Positions 27,276 to 48,306 of a DNA stretch of 64,000 nucleotides are shown in pieces (position 1 is the stretch's first letter; every line of letters starts with the position of its first letter). Made by a program: the position numbers and the translations under genes. The DNA lies in assembly GCF_000455125.1 (NCBI RefSeq), contig NZ_AUWR01000035.1, positions 35,805 to 99,804 on the forward strand, in the 5' to 3' direction. This stretch comes from Mycobacterium sp. UM_WGJ. GTDB taxonomy: Bacteria; Actinomycetota; Actinomycetes; Mycobacteriales; Mycobacteriaceae. Under the pieces are notes generated by a model. That model was not told where the DNA came from and made no database searches. It was given only the letters and a program-made list of their open reading frames with translations.

Positions 27276-27755
27276 ATGCACCGGGTGAAGCGACTTGGCT
27301 GGTCGGCGGTGGCGACTCTCGCCTATGCCGCGGTGATGTTGGTGCTGGAGCGCGGGATGCGAAAGACGGGCGGCCCCGGCATCATCGGCTTTGAGCTGGC
27401 CGGCAATGCCGAACGAGTCCAGGAGATCTTGGCCGTCTGGGGAGACGAGGGCGGTCGGTGGGCGCGCTGGTCTCTGTGGCTCGACTTCGGTTACATGCTG
27501 ACCTACGGAACCTTGGGGCTGTTGCTCATCGAGCGTGCCCGAAGTCGCCACGGGCATCCGATCATGTTGCGGCTGTTGCCGATCGGTGCGGTGGCCGGCG
27601 ACGCGATCGAGGGCGTGGCGCTGCTCAAGGTGCTCGACGGCGCCGACATCGACGTGAACGCCCGGCGTGCGCGTGGCGCGGCGCTTGCCAAGTTCGCCCT
27701 GTTAGCGGTGGGGCTGGTCTACACCGTCATCGGGGGAGTTCGCCGGCGGTCATAA
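27276..27755 (+). CDS. small multi-pass membrane protein, unknown function
   Basis: The product is about 159 aa. Hydrophobic segments sit at roughly residues 8-25 (GWSAVATLAYAAVMLVLERG), 70-88 (WLDFGYMLTYGTLGLLLIER), 96-112 and 135-152 (ALAKFALLAVGLVYTVIGGV), suggesting four membrane spans. No conserved catalytic motif is evident. In Mtb this position next to hsaB holds a different gene (Rv3566A/nat region). The start is uncertain: ATG 27267, ATG 27276 or GTG 27285. Its 3' end overlaps the convergent gene by six bases. Confidence 0.6.
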   Translation: MHRVKRLGWSAVATLAYAAVMLVLERGMRKTGGPGIIGFELAGNAERVQEILAVWGDEGGRWARWSLWLDFGYMLTYGTLGLLLIERARSRHGHPIMLRLLPIGAVAGDAIEGVALLKVLDGADIDVNARRARGAALAKFALLAVGLVYTVIGGVRRRS

Positions 27756-29024
27756 GCCGTGCCAGCATCGCTGATGTTCGGCGTGGGTGCGTAGATACGC
27801 CCCGGGTGAGTACATCTCGTCGTAGAAATCGGTGTCCAGATGCTGGGCCTGCAGATACATCAGCACATGCACCGTCGGGACGGTGCCCGGCAGTTTCCCG
27901 AACGTGTCGTAGATGTAGGACGCCTCGCAGGTGACCAGTTCGGCGATGCGGTCCGGTGCCAGTGCCGATCCGCGCACGGCCCGGCTGTCTGACCACGGAC
28001 CCGGGGTGTCGGGGTGCGACGGACCGCCGGGCCCGAATTTGCGGGCCACCAGCTTTTGCACACCCTGCGCGACCGAGGCGACATGCGGCGGGCTCAGCGT
28101 CTCGAAGTGACCGGGTAACCCGGTGACATTCGGGAACGGCCAGCGCGGATCGGTGTCGGCGACAAAACCCAGTCCGGGGGCACGCGGGTCACCGGAGCCG
28201 CCCAGCACCGACAACCGGTCCAGACCGTCGAAGATCCAGCCGCCCAAGCCCATTGCCTGCAAGCCCAGCGCTCCGTTATGGGCCGCGATGGACAACTCCG
28301 CACTGGCCTCGGTCAGGGTGTACTGCTCCACGAACGACAGCGGTATCGGGTCGTCGGCATGCGCCAAACCGGAAAACGACTGTATGCCGGGTATTTCGCG
28401 ACCATGGACGTCGTCGCGGATCGGATAGCCGTTGGCCGCGAAGAACCACAGGTTCTCCAGCAGATGTTCGGCCAGGTCAGCCACATTGAAGGCCAACAGA
28501 CTGCCCGGGTGGTTGCCGATCCAGGTGTTGTGGCCCTCCATGTAGGGCTCTTCACGGGGTAGTTCCAGCCGGGACTCCGAAATCCGGACATAGGAATCGG
28601 CGGTATGGCCGATCCACTCTTCGATGCTGTCGAACTCGCGTGGTTCTTGATCGCGGGTGGGCAGCAGATAGCAGCCGGTGTCGTCGGTGAAGAACAGCTG
28701 GCTGGTGTGAAAGCCGGCCGCCGACGGCAGGGCGCGCCCGGTGGCGCTGCCGGGATAGTTCGGCAGCGCCGGGGCGTACCCGGGATGGTGCGCGATCCCG
28801 TCATGCCAGCCGGTGGTGCCGGCCATCAGCGACAACAGCAGGGCTCGCTCGACCTCGGACAGCGGCTGCACCGGACGGCGGCTGGTGTAGGCCAGCGCAC
28901 CGGCTGGAATGGCGCCGCCCACGGGGAACCGTCGCGACCGGCGTCCGGTGATGGCGGCGAACAGCCCGAAACCGGCCGCCTGCGCCAGCGCGGCCCGTTC
29001 CTGTTCAGTGATCGCCAGGGCCAT
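27750..29024 (-). CDS. unknown protein, possible nitroreductase-fold/SagB-like
   Basis: The 424-aa cytoplasmic protein is not one I recognise. The N-terminal part has RRPVQPLSEVERALLLSLMA followed by GRALPSAAGFHTSQLFFTDD and GCYLLPTRDQEP. That order (pls..E...LL, then PSaG...., then a Y/D turn) recalls the nitroreductase/SagB flavoprotein superfamily. The rest (PLSFVEQYTLTEASAELSIA, MGLGGWIFDGLDRLSVLGG, CEASYIYDTFGKLPGTVP) gives no further clue. Composition and codon use look like a real gene. It follows the haemophore-like gene by nine bases and may be the last gene of the fadD3 run. Family assignment is a guess. Confidence 0.65.
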   Translation of the reverse strand: MALAITEQERAALAQAAGFGLFAAITGRRSRRFPVGGAIPAGALAYTSRRPVQPLSEVERALLLSLMAGTTGWHDGIAHHPGYAPALPNYPGSATGRALPSAAGFHTSQLFFTDDTGCYLLPTRDQEPREFDSIEEWIGHTADSYVRISESRLELPREEPYMEGHNTWIGNHPGSLLAFNVADLAEHLLENLWFFAANGYPIRDDVHGREIPGIQSFSGLAHADDPIPLSFVEQYTLTEASAELSIAAHNGALGLQAMGLGGWIFDGLDRLSVLGGSGDPRAPGLGFVADTDPRWPFPNVTGLPGHFETLSPPHVASVAQGVQKLVARKFGPGGPSHPDTPGPWSDSRAVRGSALAPDRIAELVTCEASYIYDTFGKLPGTVPTVHVLMYLQAQHLDTDFYDEMYSPGAYLRTHAEHQRCWHGL

Positions 29025-29033
29025 TGCCCAGGC

Positions 29034-29432
29034 CTACTTGCTGACGGTCTCCAGCAGCATGGCCAGCTGGGTCGGCGAGACCGCGATCCCGCACTGGTTC
29101 TTCAGGTCGGTGAGCGGCTGGGCGATGCCCTGCAGGGTCGACAGCTGGTCGAGGTGGCCGATGAAGTAGCCCTGAACCGAGGACTTGGCCTGGTCCGCGG
29201 GCATGGTGGCCGCGTTGGTCAGCACGTCATTGGCCTCCGGGTGGTCGTGGAGGAACACACCCGCCTGGCCCAGCACGCCGCTGGCGGTACTGGACAGCCC
29301 GGCCGCGGTGCAGGAGGCGGGCGCGGCGTCGGCGGCGGGCGTGCTGGTGGTCAGTGCCGATGCGGCCACCGCACCGAGGATGCCGGCGGCTGCGGCGCCG
29401 AGCGCCAGGCCAGAAGTCGTGGAGATGCGCAT
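29034..29432 (-). CDS. secreted haemophore-like protein (MHB-type)
   Basis: The 132-aa protein has a signal peptide (about residues 1-37, ending TPAADAAPA). The mature domain has the mycobacterial haem-binding (Rv0203-like, MHB) pattern: an N-terminal Cys, FLHDHPEANDVLT, GYFIGHLDQLSTLQGIAQPL, then TDLKNQCGIAVSPTQLAMLL. The two cysteines probably form a disulfide. Known family members bind haem outside the cell or act in haem uptake, but similar domains exist with no proven haem function. It has a fair ribosome site (GAAGGGA) before ATG 29432. I found no IdeR box upstream. It is unusual inside a steroid-degradation cluster. Confidence 0.7.
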   Translation of the reverse strand: MRISTTSGLALGAAAAGILGAVAASALTTSTPAADAAPASCTAAGLSSTASGVLGQAGVFLHDHPEANDVLTNAATMPADQAKSSVQGYFIGHLDQLSTLQGIAQPLTDLKNQCGIAVSPTQLAMLLETVSK

Positions 29433-29477: not shown

Positions 29478-30644
29478 CTACCGGAGCGGCAGCCACCCGC
29501 GGAGTCGGCGCAGGGCTTCGTCGATGTCGGCGGTCGGGCCGGCGAACGACAGCCGGACGAAGGTGTTGCCGCGTTCGGTGTCGAAGTCGACGCCCGGCGT
29601 CAGCGCGAGACCGGTGTCGGCCAGCAGGCGCGCGCAGAACGCCAGTGAGTCGTCGGTGTGCTCTGCGAGGTCCGCATAGACGTAGAACGCGCCGTCGGTG
29701 GGGGCCAACCGGTCGATGCCCATGCTCCGCAGTCCGCCGAGCAGCAGTTCCCGGTTGGCGGCGTAGTGCCGCAGGTGGCCGTTGGATTCTGCGATCGCCT
29801 CCGGCGTGAACGCCGCGACCGCCGCGTACTGGGCCAGCACCGGCGGGCAGATGGTGAAGTTGCCGGTCAGGCAGTCCACCGCACGGCGCAGTGCCGGCGG
29901 CACCAGCAGCCAGCCCAGCCGCCAGCCGGTCATCGCAAAGTACTTCGAGAAGCTGTTGGCCACCACCGCGTTCCGCGAAGTCTCCCAAGCACAGCTGGTC
30001 TGCGGTGCACCCTGGTAGACCAGGCCGTGGTAGACCTCGTCGCTGATCAGTCGCACACCGGCGGTGTCGCACCAGGCGGCGATCGCGGCCAGCTCCGCCG
30101 GTTCCAGCACAGTCCCGGTCGGGTTGGCGGGGCTGGCCACGATGACCCCTGCCAACGGTCCGGGAATCTCGGCGAGCATGGCGGCGGTGGGCTGGAAGCG
30201 GGTCTCGGGCCCGCACGGGATCTCGACCACCTCACAGCCCAGCGCGGTCAGGATGTTGCGATAGCAGGGATAGCCCGGGCTGGCGATCGCCACCCGATCG
30301 CCGGCGTCGAAACAGGCCAGAAATGCGAGCAGGAAGCCCCCGGACGAACCCGTGGTCACGACCACGTCGTCGGGGTCGACGCTCAGCCCGTAGCGGTCGG
30401 CATACGAGCCGGCGATGGCCGAGCGCAGCTCCGGGATGCCCAGTGCGACGGTGTAGCCCAGCGCATTGGCGTTCAGCGCCGCGGCGGCGGCGGCGCGCAC
30501 CGGTTCGGGGGCGCCCACACTGGGCTGGCCGGCCGACAGATTCACCAGATCGCCATGGGTGCGTTGGCGTTCGGCCGCGGCCAGCCACACGTCCATCACA
30601 TGGAACGGCGGAATGCCCGCGCGCAGCGCAACCCGGTCGGTCAT
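29478..30644 (-). CDS. aspB: PLP-dependent aminotransferase AspB (Rv3565-like)
   Basis: The 388-aa protein is a fold-type I class I/II aminotransferase. Visible motifs are NLSAGQPSVGAPEPVRAAA, TTGSSGGFLLAFLACFDAGD, ASPANPTGTVLEP, DEVYHGLVYQG and the PLP-lysine segment NSFSKYFAMTGWRLGWLL; the C-terminus has TFVRLSFAGPTADIDEALRR. Length and genomic place match Rv3565, a KstR2-regulon gene without a proven substrate in cholesterol catabolism. ATG 30644 overlaps the lipase stop as ATGA (30641-30644), so it is translationally coupled to that gene. In Mtb aspB instead sits directly beside fadE33. Confidence 0.88.
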   Translation of the reverse strand: MTDRVALRAGIPPFHVMDVWLAAAERQRTHGDLVNLSAGQPSVGAPEPVRAAAAAALNANALGYTVALGIPELRSAIAGSYADRYGLSVDPDDVVVTTGSSGGFLLAFLACFDAGDRVAIASPGYPCYRNILTALGCEVVEIPCGPETRFQPTAAMLAEIPGPLAGVIVASPANPTGTVLEPAELAAIAAWCDTAGVRLISDEVYHGLVYQGAPQTSCAWETSRNAVVANSFSKYFAMTGWRLGWLLVPPALRRAVDCLTGNFTICPPVLAQYAAVAAFTPEAIAESNGHLRHYAANRELLLGGLRSMGIDRLAPTDGAFYVYADLAEHTDDSLAFCARLLADTGLALTPGVDFDTERGNTFVRLSFAGPTADIDEALRRLRGWLPLR

Positions 30645-31831
30645 GAGTCATCCTCCGTCATGATGCGGTGCAGGAAGCGGGTGGCGTCGGGCATAGCGGC
30701 GAGCACCGTGCCGGAATGGTCCTGGTCGGGGTAGATGTGCAGCTCGACATTCTGGCCGTTGTCGATCAGCTGCTGATACAGCGTTTGACTGGACCGGGGT
30801 GGCACGTCGGTGTCGAGCAGGCCGTGCCCCAACAAGATCGGCCGATCGTATCCGCCGGTGGGGGTGCCCATGAAGCCGTCGAGCGCCGCGCCGATCCCGT
30901 CCAGCGACGCCACCGGCGCGCTGAACAGCTCATCGATCCGGGTTCCGGCCGCCTGTCGGTCCAGGTCGGTCTTGCAGACGGTTTCGGCCCGATCTGCCAG
31001 CTCGCGCCCGCGAGGAGTCAGCACACTGTCGATGGGAATCTCGGGAAGCGCTTCGCGCAGCGCGGCCACGATGTATGAGGCGTAACTGATCGCGGCGGGA
31101 GGCACCGACTGCGGCGGCAGATCGGGTCCGGCCTCCATGACCAGCCGTTCGATGTTGGCCGGTGTGCCGGTGGCCACCACGCCTCGATAGTCCAGGCCGC
31201 TGCCGGCGGTGAGGCGGGTGGCCCACCACGCGCTGTTGATCGCCGCGCCGCCGCCCTGGGACTGACCCACGATCGCCCACTTGGGCGACAGCGGCAGGTC
31301 CATCTGGTGCACGGCTCGCACGGAGTCGATCACCGAGTGCGCTTCGGCGGCGCTGTTGAGATAGCTCATCAGCCCTGGCGTGCCGAGCCCGGCGTAATCG
31401 GTGCCGACCACCAGGTAGCCCTCGTCGAGCCAGTGCGACAGGTATTCGTTGTCGCGGGCGCTACGTGGCCGCGCCGACGGCGTGCAGTCGTCGCCGAGCC
31501 CGACGGTGCCGTGCGCCCATGCGATTAGCGGCCATCCGCCCGCCGGGGGCGCCCCGTGCGGAACGAAGACCGCCGCCGTGCTCACTGCGGGCCGGTCGTG
31601 TTGATCTGTCGTGGCGTACAGGATCCGGAATGCCTTGGCGGCGCCGGTCACCGACAGGGCCGGGTCCAGTGGCACCGTGGTGATCAGACCCCCTTCGGGG
31701 GGAATGGGGCCGGCATAGCTGCGCGCGTCAAGGCCCGACCACTGCGGCGCCGGCTCAGCGGCCGCGGGTGCGGCCAACACCAGGGCGGCCAGTCCGGCGG
31801 CCAACAGCGCATTGCGGCGCGGCGACCTCAC
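30641..31831 (-). CDS. secreted lipase, secretory-lipase (LIP) family
   Basis: The roughly 396-aa product begins VRSPRRNALLAAGLAALVLA, a signal peptide with likely cleavage near AAAEP. The alpha/beta hydrolase fold has the oxyanion region PLIAWAHGTVGLGDDCTPSA, the nucleophile elbow VGQSQGGGAAINSAWW (GxSxG), PILLGHGLLDTDVPP with the likely Asp, and DQDHSGTVLAA with the likely His. It would hydrolyse lipid or sterol esters outside the membrane; the exact substrate is unknown. GTG 31831 overlaps the stop of the Ntn hydrolase as GTGA (31828-31831). The frame upstream to 32047 lies inside that gene. It is absent from the equivalent Mtb operon. Confidence 0.8.
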   Translation of the reverse strand: MRSPRRNALLAAGLAALVLAAPAAAEPAPQWSGLDARSYAGPIPPEGGLITTVPLDPALSVTGAAKAFRILYATTDQHDRPAVSTAAVFVPHGAPPAGGWPLIAWAHGTVGLGDDCTPSARPRSARDNEYLSHWLDEGYLVVGTDYAGLGTPGLMSYLNSAAEAHSVIDSVRAVHQMDLPLSPKWAIVGQSQGGGAAINSAWWATRLTAGSGLDYRGVVATGTPANIERLVMEAGPDLPPQSVPPAAISYASYIVAALREALPEIPIDSVLTPRGRELADRAETVCKTDLDRQAAGTRIDELFSAPVASLDGIGAALDGFMGTPTGGYDRPILLGHGLLDTDVPPRSSQTLYQQLIDNGQNVELHIYPDQDHSGTVLAAMPDATRFLHRIMTEDDS

Positions 31832-32814
31832 TTGTTCAATCCGAGAAAGGTGAACGCCTCGGCCGCTTCGAAACTCGCCGATGTCTCGCCGGCGAAGACA
31901 TTGCTGTCGTCGGAGCCGAGGGCGAGCTTGCGTACTGGGGCGCCTTCGTCGAAGTCCAGTTTGTTCAGGTCCACCCAGAACACGTTGGGGGTCAGCGCTG
32001 ATTCGAAGCAATACAGCTTGCGGGTGTGGTGTGCGACGGTGCGCCACCGGGTGGAGGAGATGTTGGGCTCGTTCGGCGTGGAGATGCCGAACGGCACCGA
32101 AACATTGCGCACAACACTGAGTACCGACGCGAGCGCGATCTTGAGGTCCTCGGATTTCGGTATCGCGTTGACGTAGAACGAAGCCCGCGCGAAGCGATCC
32201 GCGGCCCGGTTGGTGCCCGGCAACATGACCGTGCCGCCCAGCTGCTCCCAGTAGGAGTTCACCGCAAGTTGTTGTTCGAAGATCGGCGAGTTCGTCATCA
32301 CCTGATACTGGCGCCCGTGGTGGATGACCTGCTTGCCGTCAACGTATTCCACGATCGCACTGTCGCCTGTCGCGTCGGACAGGGACAGGTGCAGCGTGGC
32401 CAGGCGGTCCTCACCGGGCACGCCGTCGGTCACCACCTGGAACGCTTCGGCCTTCAGCGCGGCGACGGCTTCGGCCACGGTGGCGAAGTTGTCCAGGACA
32501 TACTGGGCCCAGATGGAGATGCACAACCCGGGGCGGCTGCCGTCGTATTGCGGGTACACCGATTCGGCCAGCCAGAGCAGGTTCGCCGACAGACCGGCTT
32601 CGTTCAGTCCGTCGGTGGTGCAGATGTTGTAGCCGGTAGCCACCACGCTGCCGTACTTTGCGGTCCATTCGATGGAATTGGCCCCGGCCCGGCCGTCGCG
32701 CTTCACACCACGCGGCATCGACCACAGATCGGTCGCCAAATCCAGCTTCCAGTCCATCGATCGACCGGTGATGATGTTGCCGTTCGGGCCGAGGTAAACC
32801 AGGCGAGTACACAT
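31828..32814 (-). CDS. choloylglycine hydrolase-family Ntn amidase
   Basis: The 328-aa product starts MCTRLVYLGPNGNIITGRSM and belongs to the linear amide C-N hydrolase family (bile salt hydrolases, penicillin V acylases). Cys2 would become the N-terminal nucleophile after Met removal. Arg18 and Asp21 match the family's substrate-site residues. VMTNSPIFEQQ supplies the oxyanion Asn and PGTNRAADRFARA the conserved Arg. No signal peptide is seen. It lies 19 bp after fadE33 and is coupled to the lipase gene. Conjugated bile acid, N-acyl amino acid or acyl-homoserine lactone substrates are all possible; the operon suggests a steroid amide. Confidence 0.85.
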   Translation of the reverse strand: MCTRLVYLGPNGNIITGRSMDWKLDLATDLWSMPRGVKRDGRAGANSIEWTAKYGSVVATGYNICTTDGLNEAGLSANLLWLAESVYPQYDGSRPGLCISIWAQYVLDNFATVAEAVAALKAEAFQVVTDGVPGEDRLATLHLSLSDATGDSAIVEYVDGKQVIHHGRQYQVMTNSPIFEQQLAVNSYWEQLGGTVMLPGTNRAADRFARASFYVNAIPKSEDLKIALASVLSVVRNVSVPFGISTPNEPNISSTRWRTVAHHTRKLYCFESALTPNVFWVDLNKLDFDEGAPVRKLALGSDDSNVFAGETSASFEAAEAFTFLGLNK

Positions 32815-32833: not shown

Positions 32834-33781
32834 TCAGACCACCTCGGCCTGCAACCGGCGAAGATGGTGTGCCGGCTGGCCAAAGAGTTGCGAACTTCCG
32901 TGTGCGCGTTTGAAGTACAGCTGGATGTCGCTTTCCCAGGTGATTGCGATACCGCCGTGCAGCTGCACCGCTTCGCCGGCCACCTTGGTGAATGCCTCGC
33001 TGGCGACCACCCGTGCCAGCGCCGCAGAGGTCGCCGACGGCTCGGCGATCGCGTCGTCGACAACGGCGCGCGCGGCCGACACGGCCACGTACAGGTCGGC
33101 CATCCGGTGTTTGAGCGCCTGGAAACTGCCGATCGGCCGGCCGAACTGTACCCGGCTCTTGGTGTACTCCACGGTCAGGTCCAGGCAGCGAGCCGCCGCG
33201 CCGATCTGCTCGGCCGCCAGCAGGATCGCCGCATAGTCCGCGATGCCGGGGTCCTCCCCGATCGGCGCGGTGGCGGTGGGGACGATGCGGCCAAGACGCC
33301 GAGTGGGGTCCATGGTGGCAACCGGCTCGGTGCTGAATTCCGTCCAGCGGGTGAGCTGGCTGCCGTCGGTGCCGACAACGACGTCGGCGATATCACCGTT
33401 GGCGGCGTAGCCGTCGCCGAAGACGACCGCTCCGATCGCGCCGCCTGCTGCCAACTGTTCCAACGCCTCGGCGTCGGGCTCGGGCGAGGCCAGCAGCGCC
33501 AGCTCGGCCAAGATGGTGCCCAGCAGCGGGGTGGGCACGAGTGCCTTGCCCAGCTCCTCGAGAACCACTGCGGCGTCGCCCAGTTCGCCCCCGGCACCGC
33601 CGAGCTCCTCGGGCACCACCAGGGCAGCGGCGCCGACCTGCTCGCACAACAGTTGCCACAGGGTCTGGTCGTAGCCGCGGTCGGATTCCATCGCCACCCG
33701 TACTGCTTCTCCGGTGGCGTGCTTGTCGACCAATGCGGCCACGGTCTGGCGCAGCAGGTCGCGTTCGTCGTTACGGGTCAC
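32834..33781 (-). CDS. fadE33: acyl-CoA dehydrogenase FadE33
   Basis: The 315-aa protein is a short acyl-CoA dehydrogenase of the KstR2 regulon. It has a compact N-terminal domain (LVVPEELGGAGGELGDAAVV), VEYTKSRVQFGRPIGSFQAL and ends AITWESDIQLYFKRAHGSSQ. It is thought to act in the late beta-oxidation of ring C/D products; the short FadEs in this cluster are probably subunits of heteromeric alpha2beta2 enzymes. GTG 33781 directly abuts the TAA of fadE32, with no bases between. Confidence 0.88.
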   Translation of the reverse strand: MTRNDERDLLRQTVAALVDKHATGEAVRVAMESDRGYDQTLWQLLCEQVGAAALVVPEELGGAGGELGDAAVVLEELGKALVPTPLLGTILAELALLASPEPDAEALEQLAAGGAIGAVVFGDGYAANGDIADVVVGTDGSQLTRWTEFSTEPVATMDPTRRLGRIVPTATAPIGEDPGIADYAAILLAAEQIGAAARCLDLTVEYTKSRVQFGRPIGSFQALKHRMADLYVAVSAARAVVDDAIAEPSATSAALARVVASEAFTKVAGEAVQLHGGIAITWESDIQLYFKRAHGSSQLFGQPAHHLRRLQAEVV

Positions 33782-34747
33782 TTAGATCGCCTCCAACACT
33801 CGCCGACGGTGGGCGGTCGGGTCACCCCACGCGGGACGCAGCGCCTGCACCCGCAGCAACCACAGTGACAGGTCGCACTCGCTGGTGAAGCCGATCGCGC
33901 CGTGGGTCTGCAGCGCCGAATGCGCAGCCAGCAGGGCGGCGTCGGACGCGGCCACCTTCGCGGCGCTGACGTCGCGGGCGGTGTCGGGGGAGTCCTGCGA
34001 CACCGAGATCGCCGCCCCGTACACCAACGGGCGGGCCAGCTCGAGCGCGATGTGCACGTCGGCCAGCTTGTGCTTGATGGCCTGGTAGCCGCCGATCACC
34101 CGCCCGAACTGGGTGCGCTGTTTGGCGTAGTCGACGGCGATGTTCAGCATCGCCTGCCCGGCCCCGACCAGCTGCGCGGCAGTGGCCAGGGCGCCCATCT
34201 CGTAGGCGCGGGCGGTGTCGGTGTTCCAGGAGTCGCCGGTCGCGTTCACGTCGAACACGCCGCGGCTGGAGTCCACCGAGGCGTGACGGGTGCCGACCTG
34301 TGCGATCGATGCTGTCCCGTTCTGGGCCAGCAGGACCAGATCGGCGCGGTCGGCGTCGACTGCGCGTGGGGTGTGCGGCGGCAGTGCCACGGTGGCGATC
34401 AGCTCCCCGGCAGCCAGTCCGGCCAGCTGCGCACCGGCATCGGGTGAACCGGCCAGCAGGATCGGCCCGACCGCAATGGATTCCACCACCGGTCCGGGGA
34501 CGCACCAGCGGCCCAGCGCCTCGATGGCCAGCACCGTATCGACGGGGTCGGCGCCGATACCGTCGAACTCTTCGGGCACCGCCAGCGCGGTCACGCCGAG
34601 CTCGGTCAGTTGGTTCCACACCCGACGGCCGGGCTCGGCCTCACCTTGCGACCAGGCCCGCACCGCACCGGGCACGTCGGCGGCGCCCAGCGCGGCGTCG
34701 ATGCTGGCCGCGAAGTCGCGCTGATCTTGGTCTAGATCGAATTTCAT
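33782..34747 (-). CDS. fadE32: acyl-CoA dehydrogenase FadE32
   Basis: The 321-aa protein is the neighbour of FadE33 in the same family. Motifs are ALAVPEEFDGIGADPVDTVL, VDYAKQRTQFGRVIGGYQAI and GAIGFTSECDLSLWLLRVQA. In related actinobacteria FadE31-32-33 are tied to degradation of the methyl-oxo-octanedioyl intermediate after ring opening. ATG 34747 overlaps the fadE31 stop as ATGA (34744-34747). Exact partner pairing cannot be read from sequence. Confidence 0.88.
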   Translation of the reverse strand: MKFDLDQDQRDFAASIDAALGAADVPGAVRAWSQGEAEPGRRVWNQLTELGVTALAVPEEFDGIGADPVDTVLAIEALGRWCVPGPVVESIAVGPILLAGSPDAGAQLAGLAAGELIATVALPPHTPRAVDADRADLVLLAQNGTASIAQVGTRHASVDSSRGVFDVNATGDSWNTDTARAYEMGALATAAQLVGAGQAMLNIAVDYAKQRTQFGRVIGGYQAIKHKLADVHIALELARPLVYGAAISVSQDSPDTARDVSAAKVAASDAALLAAHSALQTHGAIGFTSECDLSLWLLRVQALRPAWGDPTAHRRRVLEAI

Positions 34748-35877
34748 TTCTTCTCCCGGGGCAGGCCCAGCAGCCGCTCGGCGATGATGTTGCGCTGAAT
34801 CTCGTTGGTGCCGGCGTAGATCGGTCCGCCGAGCGAGAACAGGTAACCGTGGGTCCAGGCGTCGGCGAGTTCGCCGTCGGCGCCCCGGATGTCCAGGCCG
34901 GTCTGGTGCAGGGCAACGTCGAGGTCGGACCAGAACACCTTGGTCACCGAGGACTCCGCGCCCAGCTCACCGCCGGCGGCCAGCCGGGTGACGGTGCCGA
35001 ACGTCTGTAACCGGTAGGCCTGCGCCTTGATCCAGGCGTCGGCGACGCGGTCGGTGAACACCGGATCGCTGCCGTGCTGGCGCCACATGGCCGCCAACCT
35101 CTCGGCGCCCACCACGAACCGGGCCGGGCTGCGCAGGCTCATGCCGCGCTCGTTGCTCGACGTGCTCATCGCGGCCCGCCAGCCTTCGTTCGGCACACCG
35201 ATGACGTCGTTGTCCGGCACGAAGACGTCGTCGAGAAAGATCTCGCCGAAGCCGGTCTCGCCGCCGAGCTGTTCGATGGCACGAACGGTGATCCCGTCGG
35301 CCTTCAGGTCGAACATGAAGTAGGTCAGGCCGTGGTGGCGCTGGGCCTCCGGGTCGGAGCGGAACAGTCCGAAGCCGCGCTCGCCGAACGGGGCCCGCGA
35401 GCTCCAGATCTTCTGCCCGTTGAGCTTCCAGCCGCCGTCGACCTTGGTCGCCGTCGAGCGCAACGACGCCAGGTCACTGCCGGACTCCGGCTCCGACCAT
35501 GCCTGCGCCCAGATCTCTTCGCCGGAGGCCATCTTCGGGAGGACGCGGTCCAGCTGTTCTTGCGTGCCGTGCGCGAACAGCGTCGGCGCCAGCATCGAGG
35601 TGCCGTTGGCGCTGGCGCGGCCGGGCGCACCGGCGCGGAAGTACTCCTCTTCGTACACCACCCACTGCAGCATGGTGGCGTCGCGCCCGCCGTACTTCTT
35701 CGGCCAGGCGATCACCGACAGGCCGGCGTCGAAAAGCACCTTGTCCCAGCGACGGTGCTGCTCGAAACCCTCGGCGGTGTCGTAGGACAGGCGCGGGAAC
35801 TTGTCGGTGTTCGCGGCCAGGAAGTCGCGGACCTCGGCGCGGAAGGCCTCGGTCTCGTCATCGAAATTCAGGTCCAT
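34744..35877 (-). CDS. fadE31: acyl-CoA dehydrogenase FadE31
   Basis: The 377-aa full-length acyl-CoA dehydrogenase starts MDLNFDDETEAFRAEVRDFL. It has the FAD-binding segments AWSEPGSGSDLASLRSTATK and WSSRAPFGERGFGLF and the C-terminal GGPIYAGTNEIQRNIIAERL. It is the likely catalytic large subunit for the short FadE32/33 partners. ATG 35877 overlaps the fadD3 stop by one base (TGATG). A GTG at 35886 is also in frame but adds only three residues. Confidence 0.9.
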   Translation of the reverse strand: MDLNFDDETEAFRAEVRDFLAANTDKFPRLSYDTAEGFEQHRRWDKVLFDAGLSVIAWPKKYGGRDATMLQWVVYEEEYFRAGAPGRASANGTSMLAPTLFAHGTQEQLDRVLPKMASGEEIWAQAWSEPESGSDLASLRSTATKVDGGWKLNGQKIWSSRAPFGERGFGLFRSDPEAQRHHGLTYFMFDLKADGITVRAIEQLGGETGFGEIFLDDVFVPDNDVIGVPNEGWRAAMSTSSNERGMSLRSPARFVVGAERLAAMWRQHGSDPVFTDRVADAWIKAQAYRLQTFGTVTRLAAGGELGAESSVTKVFWSDLDVALHQTGLDIRGADGELADAWTHGYLFSLGGPIYAGTNEIQRNIIAERLLGLPREKK

Positions 35878-37421
35878 CAGGCCCACTCTCTCAATTCATG
35901 CTTGACCACCTTGCCGCCGGGATTGCGCGGTAGGGAGTCGGTGAAGGTCACCGATCGCGGTGCCTTGAAATTCGCCAAATGCTCGCGGGCATAAGCGATC
36001 ACCGCTGCCTCGTCGAGCGTTGATCCGGGCCGGCGCACGACGAAGGCGCGGCCCACTTCGCCCATCCGCTCATCGGGAACACCGATCACCGCCACGTCGG
36101 CCACGCCGTCGAGGCGGGCCAGGGCCTGCTCGATCTCGGCCGGATAGACGTTGAAGCCGCCGCAGATGTACATGTCCTTGAGCCGGTCGGTGATCCGCAG
36201 GTTCCCGGCGGCGTCCACGGTTCCGATGTCGCCGGTGTGCAGCCAGCCCTCCGCGTCGATCGCTGCGGCGGTGGCCTCCGGGTCATCGAGGTAGCCGAGC
36301 ATGATGTTGGCGCTGCGCAGGAGCACCTCGCCGGAATCCGAATCTCCGCCAGTGCTTTCCAGTCGCAGCTCGAAATCGCCGATCGGACGCCCGCACGTGG
36401 TGGCGACGGTGACGGCGTCGTCATCGGCGCGGCACATGGTGCCGAACCCGCCGGACTCGGTCAGTCCGTAAGCGGTCAGCACGATGTCGATGTCCAGTTC
36501 GGTCTGCATCCGTTCGATCAGCACCACCGGGACGGTGGCGGCGCCGGTGACCGCGAACCGCAGCGAGCTCAGGTCGTGTTGGTCACGCTCGGGGTGATCC
36601 AGCAGGGTCTGGTAGATGGTGGGCGGCCCGGGCAGCACGGTGATCCGGTGGGATTCGATGGCTCGCAGCGCGCCTGCCGGGTCGAAGGTGAGCTGCGGGA
36701 TCAGGGTGGCCCCGGTCTGCAGGCAGGCCAGGATGCCGGCCTTGTAGCCGAAGTTGTGAAAGAACGGATTGATGCACAGGTAGCGGTCCTGCGCGGTCAT
36801 CTGACCGCACTCCGCCCAGGCCGCCGGGCCGGCCAGCGACTGCCGGTGCGCGCAGAGCACGCCCTTGCTGCGGCCGGTGGTCCCGGAGGTGAACAGGATG
36901 TCGGACAGATCATCGGGGCCAACGGCGGCGGCGCGCGCATCGACCTCGGCGGCCGGCACCGCGGCGCCGGCGGCGATGAACTCGTCCCAGGTTCCGTCCG
37001 TGGCCTCTATCGGCACCCGGACGACATGCTGCAGGTCGGGCAGCTGGTCGCGGTCCAGTTCGGTGAGCCGGTCGGTCTTGAGGAATCGGCCCATGCCCAC
37101 CAGCACCTTGGCCTTGCTGCGGGCCAGGATGTCGGTGGCCTCCGCGGCGGTGTAGCGCGTGTTCAGCGGCACCAGCACACCGCCGGCGTAGTGGGTTCCC
37201 AGGCAGGTGATCACCCAGTGCCAGGTGTTCGGCGACCACAGCGCAACCCGGTCGCCGGGCTGCACGCCGAGGGCGATCAGAGCCGCGGCGGCTCGCCGCA
37301 CCTCCTCGCGCAGGGTGGCGTAGGTGAAGCACTTGTCCTCGGTGACCAGCGCGTCATGGTCGGGCAGCGTATGCGCGATGTGGTCCAGGGCCGCAGGTGT
37401 GGTCTGCGGTTGGCTACTCAT
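35877..37421 (-). CDS. fadD3: HIP-CoA ligase FadD3
   Basis: FadD3 activates HIP, the indanedione propionate left after rings A and B are removed, to HIP-CoA; HIP-CoA is the ligand that releases KstR2. The 514-aa ANL enzyme has DLSDILFTSGTTGRSKGVLC (P-loop), INPFFHNFGYKAGILACLQT, TAYGLTESGGFGTMCRADD, GWLHTGDIGTVDAAGNLRIT (hinge) and NPGGKVVKHELREW with the catalytic Lys near the C-terminus. ATG 37421 is 77 bp from the KstR2 box. It heads a run of seven to nine minus-strand genes with overlaps or very short gaps. Confidence 0.94.
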   Translation of the reverse strand: MSSQPQTTPAALDHIAHTLPDHDALVTEDKCFTYATLREEVRRAAAALIALGVQPGDRVALWSPNTWHWVITCLGTHYAGGVLVPLNTRYTAAEATDILARSKAKVLVGMGRFLKTDRLTELDRDQLPDLQHVVRVPIEATDGTWDEFIAAGAAVPAAEVDARAAAVGPDDLSDILFTSGTTGRSKGVLCAHRQSLAGPAAWAECGQMTAQDRYLCINPFFHNFGYKAGILACLQTGATLIPQLTFDPAGALRAIESHRITVLPGPPTIYQTLLDHPERDQHDLSSLRFAVTGAATVPVVLIERMQTELDIDIVLTAYGLTESGGFGTMCRADDDAVTVATTCGRPIGDFELRLESTGGDSDSGEVLLRSANIMLGYLDDPEATAAAIDAEGWLHTGDIGTVDAAGNLRITDRLKDMYICGGFNVYPAEIEQALARLDGVADVAVIGVPDERMGEVGRAFVVRRPGSTLDEAAVIAYAREHLANFKAPRSVTFTDSLPRNPGGKVVKHELREWA

Positions 37422-37497: not shown

Positions 37498-37511
37498 AGC
37501 AAGTGCTTGGT
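37498..37511. promoter_or_regulatory. KstR2 operator between fadD3 and fadE30
   Basis: AGCAAGTGCTTGGT matches the KstR2 consensus AnCAAGnnCTTGnT at every fixed base. It sits 16 bp upstream of the fadE30 GTG and 76 bp upstream of fadD3, so one bound repressor can close both divergent operons. Confidence 0.88.
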
Positions 37512-43803: not shown

Positions 43804-43857
43804 GGCTTGTGGATGGGTGTCGGCGCGGATCGGCACCAGCGGGCAGGCTTTCAGGCT

Positions 43858-44775
43858 GTGGACGAATTGGCCTGGCCATTCCTGGGGCAGGAGGCGCTGG
43901 TTGCCAAGGCCATCCCCGAGCGGGCGATGCGGGCACTTTACCAACCGGTCTACCCCGGGGTTTACGCGCCGTGGGGTATTGAGCTGACCGCCCGGCAGCG
44001 GGCTGAGGCGGCGTGGCTGTGGTCACGCCGCCGCGGCGTGGTCGCGGGTGCCTCGGCTGCGGCGCTGCTGGGCGCGAAGTGGGTGAGTGGCGCGCTGGAC
44101 GCCGAGCTGGTGTACGGCAGCCGTCAGCCACCGCCGAGGCTCGTCGTGCACCGTGACACCCTGAAGCCCGGCGAGGTGACGACCGTCGACGGGATTGCGG
44201 TCACTGTCCCGGCACGCACCGCTTTCGACATCGGGCGGCGAACCCGGTCGCGGCTGGTCAGCCTGCAGCGACTCGACTCGTTGGCGAACGCGACCGGCGT
44301 CGGGATCGCCGATGTCGAGGCCGTCATCGCTGCCCATCCCGGGGCACGAGATCTGACCCGGCTGCGGGGTGTGCTGCCACTGGTCGACGGTGGTGCGGAA
44401 TCTCCGCAGGAGTCCGGGACTCGCCTAGCCTTGATCGACGCCGGGTTGCCACGCCCGGAGACCCAGATCGTGGTGCGCGACGAGTACGGCGGATTCGTGG
44501 CGCGGCTGGACATGGGATACCCGCAGTTCAAGGTCGGTATCGAATATGACGGCCAACAGCACTGGACGGACCCCAGGCAGCGACAGCGCGATATCGACCG
44601 GCAGGTAGCGCTCGCCGACCAAGGCTGGGTGATCAGCCGGGTCAGCGCGGCGCTGCTGCGTTACCGTCGCGGGACGTTGATTGCCCGGGTGAAGGAGGCG
44701 ATGTATTCCGCCGGATGGCCCGGCCAGGTCGCGGGTGCCAATCTGGCGACGCCGCCACGGCATGTCGCGTCGTGA
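43858..44775 (+). CDS. DUF559-type protein with AbiEi-like N-terminus
   Basis: The roughly 305-aa protein has an N-terminal part resembling AbiEi antitoxin-type proteins (VAKAIPERAMRALYQPVYPG, TARQRAEAAWLWSRRRGVVA, VTVPARTAFDIGRRTR). Its C-terminus is a DUF559/Vsr-like endonuclease fold (DMGYPQFKVGIEYDGQQHWT, RQVALADQGWVISRVSA). The E-Y-D segment fits a PD-(D/E)xK core, but nuclease activity is unproven. Many mycobacteria carry copies. GTG 43858 is chosen because family members start with a DE..LG.EAL segment; TTG 43807 and ATG 43813 are in frame upstream. The stop codon lies in the downstream repeat. Confidence 0.75.
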   Translation: MDELAWPFLGQEALVAKAIPERAMRALYQPVYPGVYAPWGIELTARQRAEAAWLWSRRRGVVAGASAAALLGAKWVSGALDAELVYGSRQPPPRLVVHRDTLKPGEVTTVDGIAVTVPARTAFDIGRRTRSRLVSLQRLDSLANATGVGIADVEAVIAAHPGARDLTRLRGVLPLVDGGAESPQESGTRLALIDAGLPRPETQIVVRDEYGGFVARLDMGYPQFKVGIEYDGQQHWTDPRQRQRDIDRQVALADQGWVISRVSAALLRYRRGTLIARVKEAMYSAGWPGQVAGANLATPPRHVAS

Positions 44776-46610: not shown

Positions 46611-47488
46611 GCTTGTGCCTCCGCTCCGAATGCCTTAACCGCCGCCTGGTAGTCGTCTTCACTACCGGACAGGTAGGTGGCCTTGAATTCCGCCCAGGTC
46701 TCGTCGGACTTGGCGGCTTCGGCGTAGTGCCGCTGGAACTTCTCGTCGCGGCCGTAATCGGCTGCCCCGATGGTGAAGTGGGCGCCACCCGGGGCCTCCA
46801 CCACCTTGTCCACCATCATCCGGTTGATCACCTGGGTCTGCGGCGAGGTGCTGGCGATCAGCTCTTCGGTGGGCACGATCTTCTCCACCGACAGGAAACG
46901 GCGCTGCGCCGACATCAGGAACAGGTCGTCGAAGTACGGATCGATGCCGGTGTAGGCGGCGTTGCCGCGGGCGTCGCCGAGGTTCAGGTGCACGAACGCG
47001 GCGTCCAGGTTCAGGGCCGGCATCGCGACCAGGGTCTCGTGGGCGCCGTCCGTCGGGTACGGCGAGGTGACGGTCTTGAGCTCGCCCTCCCAGAAGTCGA
47101 TCACCGAGCTGCCCAGCCCGGCGCGGATCGGCAGGAACGGCAGCCGCTGGGCGGCGGCCTGCAGTCCGCAGCGCAGCATGCCCTCGTCCATCTCGCGGGC
47201 CTCGATGGCCCCGGTGGTGCGGGCCTTGGAGAACCACGGGTCGTAGAACGGCGGCGAGTCCAGGGAGACGAACCCGTAGTAGGCCCGGCGCACTTTGCCC
47301 GCCGAACACAGCAGACCCAGGTCCGGTCCGCCGTAGGTCACTACGGTGAGGTCCTTGACGTCGGTGCGCAGGATGGCGCGCACGAACGCCATCGGCTTAC
47401 GCCGCGAGCCCCAGCCGCCGATACCGACGGTCATGCCGTCGCGCAGCTCGGAGACGGCGTCGTCGAGAGTGGTGATCTTCGAAGCCAT
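46607..47488 (-). CDS. ipdA: COCHEA-CoA hydrolase subunit IpdA
   Basis: IpdA is the subunit that carries the catalytic glutamate. The 293-aa protein has VGIGGWGSRRKPMAFVRAIL (CoA-transferase glycine-rich turn), LTVVTYGGPDLGLLCSAGKV and PIRAGLGSSVIDFWEGELKT. The CoA-transferase fold is used for C-C bond hydrolysis rather than CoA transfer. ATG 47488 overlaps the echA20 stop by one base (TAATG). Confidence 0.92.
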   Translation of the reverse strand: MASKITTLDDAVSELRDGMTVGIGGWGSRRKPMAFVRAILRTDVKDLTVVTYGGPDLGLLCSAGKVRRAYYGFVSLDSPPFYDPWFSKARTTGAIEAREMDEGMLRCGLQAAAQRLPFLPIRAGLGSSVIDFWEGELKTVTSPYPTDGAHETLVAMPALNLDAAFVHLNLGDARGNAAYTGIDPYFDDLFLMSAQRRFLSVEKIVPTEELIASTSPQTQVINRMMVDKVVEAPGGAHFTIGAADYGRDEKFQRHYAEAAKSDETWAEFKATYLSGSEDDYQAAVKAFGAEAQA

Positions 47489-48243
47489 TACTTCTTGCCC
47501 TTCTCGGTACCGGCGAACTCGTCGCGGTGTTCGTCGGCGACACCGGAGAGGTTGAGCTCAAAGGTGAAGCCCTGCTCCATGCGGTAGCTGGAGTTGACCT
47601 TCTGCACGTCGATGAGGTTCAGCGCTTCCTTGGCCGCCCGGATCACCCGAGTGTCCTTGGCGGCGATATCGCGGGCCACCCGCAGCGCGGCCTCGTCGAG
47701 CTCGTCGCGCGGCACCACCTCGTGCACCGATCCGTACTGGTGCAGGGTGGCGGCGTTGACGGTGGCCGCGGTGTAGAACAACCGGCGCATCATGTGCTGC
47801 GGCACCAGCCGGGACAGGTGGGTGGCCGCACCGAGGGCGCCGCGCTCCACCTCGGGCAGACCGAACTTGGCGTCGTCAGAGGCCACGATCACGTCGGCGT
47901 TGCCGACCAGGCCGATCCCGCCGCCCACGCAGAAGCCGTTGACCGCGGCGACCACCGGCACCGCGCACTCATAGACGGCCTTGAATGCCGCGAAGCAACC
48001 ACGGTTGGCGTCGATCAGGGCGGTGAAGCCCTCGGTGTTCTGCATTTCCTTGATGTCCACCCCGGCGTTGAATCCGCGGCCCTCCGCGCGAAGGATCACC
48101 ACGTGGGTGGACATGTCCTTGCCGGCGGCCGTGATGACCTCGCCGAGCTCGAACCAGGCCCGCGACGGCAGCGCGTTGACCGGTGGGTAGTCGACGGTGA
48201 CCGCGACGATCCCCGGTTCGACGGTTGTGGATGTGATCGGCAT
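47488..48243 (-). CDS. echA20: enoyl-CoA hydratase-family ring D hydrolase EchA20
   Basis: EchA20 is a crotonase-superfamily enzyme that hydrolyses ring D of the HIP-derived CoA ester. The 251-aa protein has PPVNALPSRAWFELGEVITA, ILRAEGRGFNAGVDIKEMQN (oxyanion strand), VNGFCVGGGIGLVGNADVIV and GLPEVERGALGAATHLSRLV. It is first in the minus-strand operon echA20-ipdA-ipdB-ipdC. The KstR2 operator lies 49 bp upstream of ATG 48243. Confidence 0.92.
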   Translation of the reverse strand: MPITSTTVEPGIVAVTVDYPPVNALPSRAWFELGEVITAAGKDMSTHVVILRAEGRGFNAGVDIKEMQNTEGFTALIDANRGCFAAFKAVYECAVPVVAAVNGFCVGGGIGLVGNADVIVASDDAKFGLPEVERGALGAATHLSRLVPQHMMRRLFYTAATVNAATLHQYGSVHEVVPRDELDEAALRVARDIAAKDTRVIRAAKEALNLIDVQKVNSSYRMEQGFTFELNLSGVADEHRDEFAGTEKGKK

Positions 48244-48292: not shown

Positions 48293-48306
48293 AGCAAGCA
48301 CTTGCT
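48293..48306. promoter_or_regulatory. KstR2 operator between echA20 and the SDR pair
   Basis: AGCAAGCACTTGCT is a perfect palindrome and a perfect match to AnCAAGnnCTTGnT. It serves both divergent operons: 49 bp to echA20 and 15 bp to the SDR gene at 48322. Confidence 0.9.

Follow-up and report, generated by a model that had tools for sequence, protein, structure and literature searches.

What is an amidase of the choloylglycine hydrolase (CGH) family doing in a mycobacterial operon for steroid ring C/D breakdown? The question is raised by a 64,000-nucleotide stretch of DNA from Mycobacterium sp. UM_WGJ (contig NZ_AUWR01000035.1, positions 35,805 to 99,804 of the forward strand; hereafter, the window), which belongs to a genome of 4.47 Mb and has Mycolicibacter species as its closest named relatives. 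In Mycobacterium tuberculosis numbering, fadE33 and aspB are consecutive genes, Rv3564 and Rv3565 (PMC6429209). A preliminary description of the window had placed two inserted genes between them, and this proved correct: both open reading frames are present, with Pfam matches to the CBAH and LIP families. The operator and the genes from fadD3 to aspB are arranged as follows.

37498..37511, no strand assigned: KstR2-type operator AGCAAGTGCTTGGT, an exact match to AnCAAGnnCTTGnT, 76 bp upstream of the fadD3 start codon.
35877..37421, minus strand: fadD3, HIP-CoA ligase type (NCBIfam FadD3, 824.8 bits against a cut-off of 657).
34744..35886, minus strand: fadE31-type acyl-CoA dehydrogenase (Pfam Acyl-CoA_dh domains; named from gene order, in agreement with Table 1 of PMC5380842).
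33782..34747, minus strand: fadE32-type acyl-CoA dehydrogenase (Pfam; named from gene order).
32834..33781, minus strand: fadE33, or IpdE2 (NCBIfam IpdE2, 564.4 bits against a cut-off of 450).
31828..32814, minus strand: CGH-family N-terminal nucleophile (Ntn) amidase of 328 amino acids (aa) with an ATG start (Pfam PF02275, CBAH, E 5.5e-44; PDB 5j9r, 515.7 bits).
30641..31831, minus strand: LIP-family lipase/esterase of 396 aa with a GTG start (Pfam PF03583, E 6e-10; PDB 3h2g, E 8.8e-16).
29478..30644, minus strand: aspB, class I/II aminotransferase (Pfam PF00155, E 7.5e-59).

The reading that we prefer, and to which we would give an even chance, is that the amidase is a laterally acquired N-acyl-amide hydrolase of the AtPVA type, now cytosolic and under KstR2 control, with the lipase as a separate and dispensable neighbour. 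In such a scenario, the ancestor of Mycolicibacter and Mycolicibacillus would have gained by lateral transfer an Ntn amidase of the CGH family, belonging to the AtPVA subtype of Gram-negative bacteria, and the gene would have been inserted near the end of the fadD3 operon, which KstR2 controls, at a junction that tolerates insertions. The exported proteobacterial form would have given way to a mycobacterial form without a signal peptide, starting with Met-Cys and working in the cytosol after removal of the Met; its induction would follow once HIP-CoA relieves KstR2. Rather than a dedicated bile salt hydrolase (BSH), the enzyme would most likely be one that cleaves a hydrophobic N-acyl amide with a fatty- or aryl-acyl group, by comparison with AtPVA and its reported activity on acyl-homoserine lactones (AHLs) and penicillin V. 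The lipase would have been added separately, would be exported and would be dispensable within the clade.

Operon membership comes first. After the KstR2 site, the minus-strand order is fadD3-fadE31-fadE32-fadE33-amidase-lipase-aspB, followed by a haemophore-like (MHB) gene and a gene for a 424-aa protein, so that a KstR2 operator lies upstream of the transcription unit. The motif AnCAAGnnCTTGnT, taken from PMC3068626, is found in two copies in the window against 0.02 expected, and the copy before fadD3 is a 14-mer identical to one in the M. tuberculosis Rv3560c/Rv3561 probe used there in an electrophoretic mobility shift assay. It recurs 31-139 bp upstream of fadD3 in all 18 named loci from Mycolicibacter, Mycolicibacillus and related organisms (L032-L049). 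The four-base overlaps to which the preliminary description had appealed are present between amidase and lipase (GTGA, 31828-31831) and between lipase and aspB (ATGA, 30641-30644), but not between fadE33 and the amidase, which are separated by a 19-bp gap. In the relatives, with gene starts extrapolated from alignment to the window proteins, the fadE33/amidase junction spans +4 to +29 bp, and, where the lipase is intact (12 loci), the next two junctions span -10 to +11 bp (amidase/lipase) and -4 to +22 bp (lipase/aspB). Close packing is thus conserved among relatives, whereas the four-base overlaps themselves are not. The 19-bp gap would leave little room for a promoter belonging to the amidase alone, one within fadE33 being possible, and the amidase is probably co-transcribed with fadD3, fadE31, fadE32, fadE33 and aspB. 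Since the KstR2 site, the tight spacing and the arrangement are kept in all 18 named loci, its membership of the KstR2 regulon is well supported by inference, and the earlier assignment to the fadD3 unit can be retained on the same grounds.

The preliminary description also drew a function from this setting: a secreted lipase would free sterols from esters outside the cell, a cytosolic amidase would free steroid acids from their glycine or taurine amides, and KstR2 would couple both to ring C/D breakdown. The operon slot together with the KstR2 site in 18 of 18 loci is in favour of such a module, and a cytosolic enzyme would suit imported conjugates. However, release is an early step, yet KstR2 answers to a late pathway intermediate, HIP-CoA (PMC5380842). 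Taking this together with the evidence on active site and lipase given below, we consider the module rather unlikely.

The slot is not occupied by accident. The preliminary description had left the occurrence in other genomes to be checked, and the amidase lies between fadE33 and aspB in all 18 named clade loci, an occupancy beyond chance. With the M. arupensis amidase, the window protein shares 99% identity in the best aligned stretch. Of 297 genomes sampled from the genus, 17 encode an amidase with at least 80% identity, and in each of the 17 fadE33 is directly upstream. Median pairwise dN/dS values, taken over non-independent pairs and with the intact part of a broken M. arupensis copy included in the amidase set, are 0.157 for the amidase, 0.191 for the lipase, 0.171 for fadE33, 0.178 for fadD3 and 0.128 for aspB. 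The amidase is therefore under purifying selection, like fadE33, which is again in favour of the steroid-releasing module.

The site itself receives many guests: the fadE33-aspB junction is a recurrent, permissive insertion site in mycobacteria. Searches of 138 same-genus genomes under strict E-value limits located fadE33 in 128, aspB in 132 and both in 126; six were dropped, with the two genes on different contigs or strands, leaving 120 measurable genomes. The genes are less than 300 bp apart in 90 of them, and in the other 30 the junction holds an insert, of which there are at least five kinds: the amidase, alone or together with the lipase (11), patatin-like genes (four), PhnD-like genes (six, one partial), histidine ammonia-lyase and transporter genes (three) and others (six), the last including an IS110-like transposase recognised by eye and one stretch (G066) without a clear gene. 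Inserts were read from 20 fetched stretches (L140-L159), of which that of G013 (161 bp) had none, and all 19 non-amidase inserts were viewed. Three of the insert kinds are lipid or alpha/beta hydrolases, namely the lipase, the patatin and one noted by eye in L152. Because the junction takes unrelated genes in 19 of the 120 genomes, location in the operon is weak evidence of function; the operon slot seen by the preliminary description stands, while its step from slot to function is weakened.

A permissive junction brings in another explanation, namely that the amidase is a pure passenger whose job is unrelated (AHL quenching, penicillin V cutting or the recycling of N-acyl amino acids) and whose co-expression has no meaning. 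Among insert-bearing genomes, 19 of 30 hold material other than the amidase at this place, copies elsewhere adjoin amino-acid biosynthesis genes, and a choloylglycine hydrolase of M. smegmatis, its family branch unplaced, is reported to change with nitrogen supply (PMC4617892). Yet in the 18 named loci the amidase has never left the KstR2 operon, despite its expression then being tied to HIP-CoA. We regard a mere passenger as quite unlikely.

What the enzyme may cleave can be approached through its active site. The protein belongs to PF02275 with 151.5 bits against a cut-off of 20.4, and the residues Cys2, Arg18, Asp21, Asn175 and Arg are invariant in 27 of 27 aligned rows. By inference, Arg236 in the SVVRN motif is the counterpart of CpBSH Arg228, and the catalytic Cys2 should be exposed at the mature N-terminus after Met removal. 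The preliminary description had taken these residues as those of a BSH, and all of them are indeed there; according to a review, however, five of the six catalytic residues are common to BSH and penicillin V acylases (PVA), and it is Asn81 of BSH that discriminates (PMC8066178). Instead of Asn81 (CpBSH numbering), the amidase has an aromatic residue, Trp81, which is the PVA state under the same rule (PMC8066178). Both Trp81 and Trp22 are invariant in 27 of 27 rows and form the pocket Trp-Trp pair of the Gram-negative PVA/AHL acylase subtype. With the NCBIfam bile-salt-hydrolase model NF038245, the score is far under the cut-off (83.9 bits against 350), though the model may have been built on different branches of the family. 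Among proteins of solved structure, 5j9r is the nearest (67.7% identity); it has 95.4% identity to an Agrobacterium protein, and we take it to be AtPVA itself. Besides identity, the amidase shares with this type the catalytic residues, the Trp-Trp pair and, in comparison with Agrobacterium L091, the length of loops 1-3 (taken as 20-26, 59-68 and 131-142), where 7 of 29 positions differ; the AtPVA-type acylase is exported, whereas the form in Mycolicibacter lacks a signal peptide and stands in a KstR2 operon. Both AtPVA and PaPVA are reported to be without BSH activity (PMC9207391, PMC8066178) and to have AHL acylase activity (PMC5474475). Taken together, the Trp pair, the low score and the Agrobacterium-type neighbour speak against the bile-salt reading of the preliminary description.

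The rest of the genome and known bile-acid degraders lead in the same direction. In the window's genome, the best match to a CasG-type bile-acid CoA ligase stays below the cut-off (324.2 against 750 bits). This argues mildly against growth on bile acids; other ligases could serve. The bile-acid degrader Sphingobium Chol11 employs a different amidase, Bsa, which resembles the case at hand as an amidase listed with a steroid-degradation pathway; it is described as significantly different from bile salt hydrolases, and we set it against the window amidase by description only (PMC8399759).

Where, then, did the amidase come from? All 61 proteobacterial homologues (67-75% identity) have a hydrophobic leader, ending at an Ala/Cys (59) or Gly/Cys (2) boundary. 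In 68 of 70 mycobacterial loci, a count that holds some species twice as it joins two overlapping collections, the protein starts with Met/Val-Cys, the other two being one DNA piece with a broken frame. The window amidase begins with Met-Cys and lacks a signal peptide. We considered a longer, exported form and rejected it, as the frame can be extended to a TTG within fadE33 but, by eye, shows no leader-like stretch there; none was seen in any mycobacterial locus with at least 12 open upstream residues either. In L039, the same DNA as L010 (M. arupensis DSM 44942), the amidase frame is broken near its start, by pseudogene formation or a sequencing error, and this copy was omitted from the trees. 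Mycolicibacter amidases formed one clade (support 93; 100/96 in a second tree) and the proteobacterial ones a separate clade (99; 97/94 in the second tree). The GC content of the amidase gene is 62.6% versus 68-71% for the other genes from fadD3 to aspB. A lateral gain of the amidase appears likely, and we infer both the gain and its direction.

Copies outside the operon are informative as well. In the genus sample, 149 of the 297 genomes have an amidase match of any kind and 39 have a copy of 63-70% identity. Of 15 contexts inspected for the latter, 12 are in a leuA/amt/ask-asd neighbourhood and three in a marP/acs one (in L119 and L122, where the open reading frame picker missed the amidase, its position was taken from the genus-wide search). 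No steroid genes were recognised beside these 15 copies, with some of the neighbours scanned against family libraries. Neither the lipase nor orthologues of the window's fadD3 operon lie near these 15 or five more distant contexts, which hold only remote paralogues of fadD3, fadE31 and aspB at 23-33% identity; such surroundings speak against an intrinsic steroid substrate of the amidase family. Among the proteobacterial homologues, too, neighbours were diverse and no recurrent steroid neighbour was recognised by eye, the amidase being uncalled in 3 of 61.

The lipase follows a history of its own. It matches PF03583, the secretory lipase LIP family, with 39.4 bits against a cut-off of 23, and its N-terminus looks by eye like a signal peptide. 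Ser191, Asp340 and His372, which would form the catalytic triad, are invariant in 12 of 12 aligned copies; the GxSxG serine, the Asp and the His are common to LIP-family secreted lipases, of which 3h2g is a remote relative. Intact in 12 of the 18 loci, the lipase is absent or broken in six; remnants persist in L042, as two large pieces, and in smaller form in L038 (short, E 4e-6) and L048 (very short, E 0.004), and hence the gene was lost in at least some loci. Ten relatives of 63-68% identity elsewhere stand, as judged by eye, beside gltX-like genes (six) or dxs/nhaA-like genes (four). No lipase homologue was found in 20 amidase contexts of other mycobacteria and no amidase in the ten lipase contexts. 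We therefore rejected the transfer of amidase and lipase as one cassette, their relatives being in different neighbourhoods without any pairing. An alpha/beta-hydrolase beside the amidase in L118-type loci was likewise set aside as evidence of a module, being part of the conserved marP/acs neighbourhood. Overall, lipase and amidase probably do not form an obligate pair, and the release module of the preliminary description loses much of its force.

Several observations nevertheless weigh against the reading that we prefer. The Asn81 rule is not decisive in this branch, as 3hbc, 56.5% identical to the amidase and presumably a Bacteroides BSH, carries Phe at position 81. For a CGH from Brucella, deconjugation of bile salts has been reported (PMC3234258), which also favours the steroid-releasing module, and the Brucella lineage adjoins the Agrobacterium type in the tree (support 99/88, or 82 with more taxa between). 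The amidase is 69% identical to the Brucellaceae homologue L098, which is near the Agrobacterium type and a candidate orthologue of the tested enzyme; the latter has a putative signal sequence and is linked to cell envelope traits (PMC3234258). According to the review mentioned above, phylogeny is insufficient to split BSH from PVA in Gram-negative bacteria (PMC8066178). Because of the place of the Brucella lineage and the presumed activity of 3hbc, the subtype label is compatible with bile-salt cleavage. Furthermore, that the amidase has stayed in this one place throughout the clade is more readily explained by a steroid role than by a random passenger, and the trees leave room for the two mycobacterial amidase clades to be one or separate (p-AU 0.383), which bears on the transfer and its direction. 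Even with these points in mind, it seems fairly unlikely that an amidase shifted from the cell surface to the cytosol cuts steroid-acid amides within the KstR2 regulon, be they conjugated bile acids or HIP-type fragments.

The presence of aspB in the same operon and the cytosolic form of the amidase allow one more explanation. The enzyme might act inside the pathway, in salvage or conjugation, cleaving amino-acid amides of HIP-type acids or steroid fragments beside AspB, or making them by N-acyl transfer; BSH proper has been shown to be an amine N-acyltransferase too (PMC10881385). However, amides of HIP-type acids are not described in the parts of the pathway literature cited here, and in the sections of PMC5380842 on which we draw, the KstR2 table stops at fadE33 and the main text has no amidase or aminotransferase. 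This role strikes us as highly improbable.

The surroundings of the operon agree with its assignment. On the opposite side of the KstR2 site, on both strands, there are an acyl-CoA dehydrogenase, a short-chain dehydrogenase/reductase, a thiolase, a TetR regulator, a CoA-transferase gene and an enoyl-CoA hydratase, which are the genes expected of a KstR2 cluster. A second perfect KstR2 site (48293-48306) lies 49 bp upstream of an enoyl-CoA hydratase gene (47488-48243, minus strand). Inside the cluster, a 322-aa protein (43807-44775, plus strand) has a weak MTES_1575/DUF559 endonuclease-like C-terminus, below curated cut-offs. Two further genes may form the operon tail.

29034..29432, minus strand: MHB haemophore-like protein (Pfam MHB, E 1.4e-26), 45 bp after aspB.
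27750..29024, minus strand: 424-aa protein, 9 bp after the MHB gene.

The MHB gene is present in 17 of the 18 related loci, and a haem-binding protein may thus be expressed together with the ring C/D genes. Searches with the 424-aa protein gave nothing in Pfam or NCBIfam at E 0.001 and nothing in the PDB at E 1; its gene is kept at the operon tail in 18 of 18 related loci. Homologues were found in five of 60 same-genus genomes searched; outside the 18 loci, copies lie about 1 kb after fadE33 in G050, G088 and G092 (73-75% identical) and about 2.2 kb after aspB in G030 (79%). We propose the gene as a candidate uncharacterised steroid-linked gene.

Finally, we would like to place the locus among known systems. 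With the KstR2 regulon of M. tuberculosis and M. smegmatis it has in common the order from fadD3 to aspB and the operator, while no amidase or lipase is named between fadE33 and aspB in the sections of PMC3068626 used here. Among the top-ranked results of a literature search over open-licence papers, we found no description of a CGH amidase in a KstR2 operon. Steroid release by this locus is a hypothesis that holds about a quarter of our belief. Were it false, the locus would be a warning case: since the fadE33-aspB junction accepts many unrelated genes, location in a steroid operon is weak evidence of steroid function. Were steroid amides indeed cut, the steroid catabolism of mycobacteria would be extended by a step of substrate release that answers to the same repressor, and one would expect members of the Mycolicibacter group to make use of conjugated bile acids. 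A single switch would then turn on both the degradation of the rings and the cleavage of conjugates, and the group would have arrived independently at a second way of doing what Bsa does in Proteobacteria.

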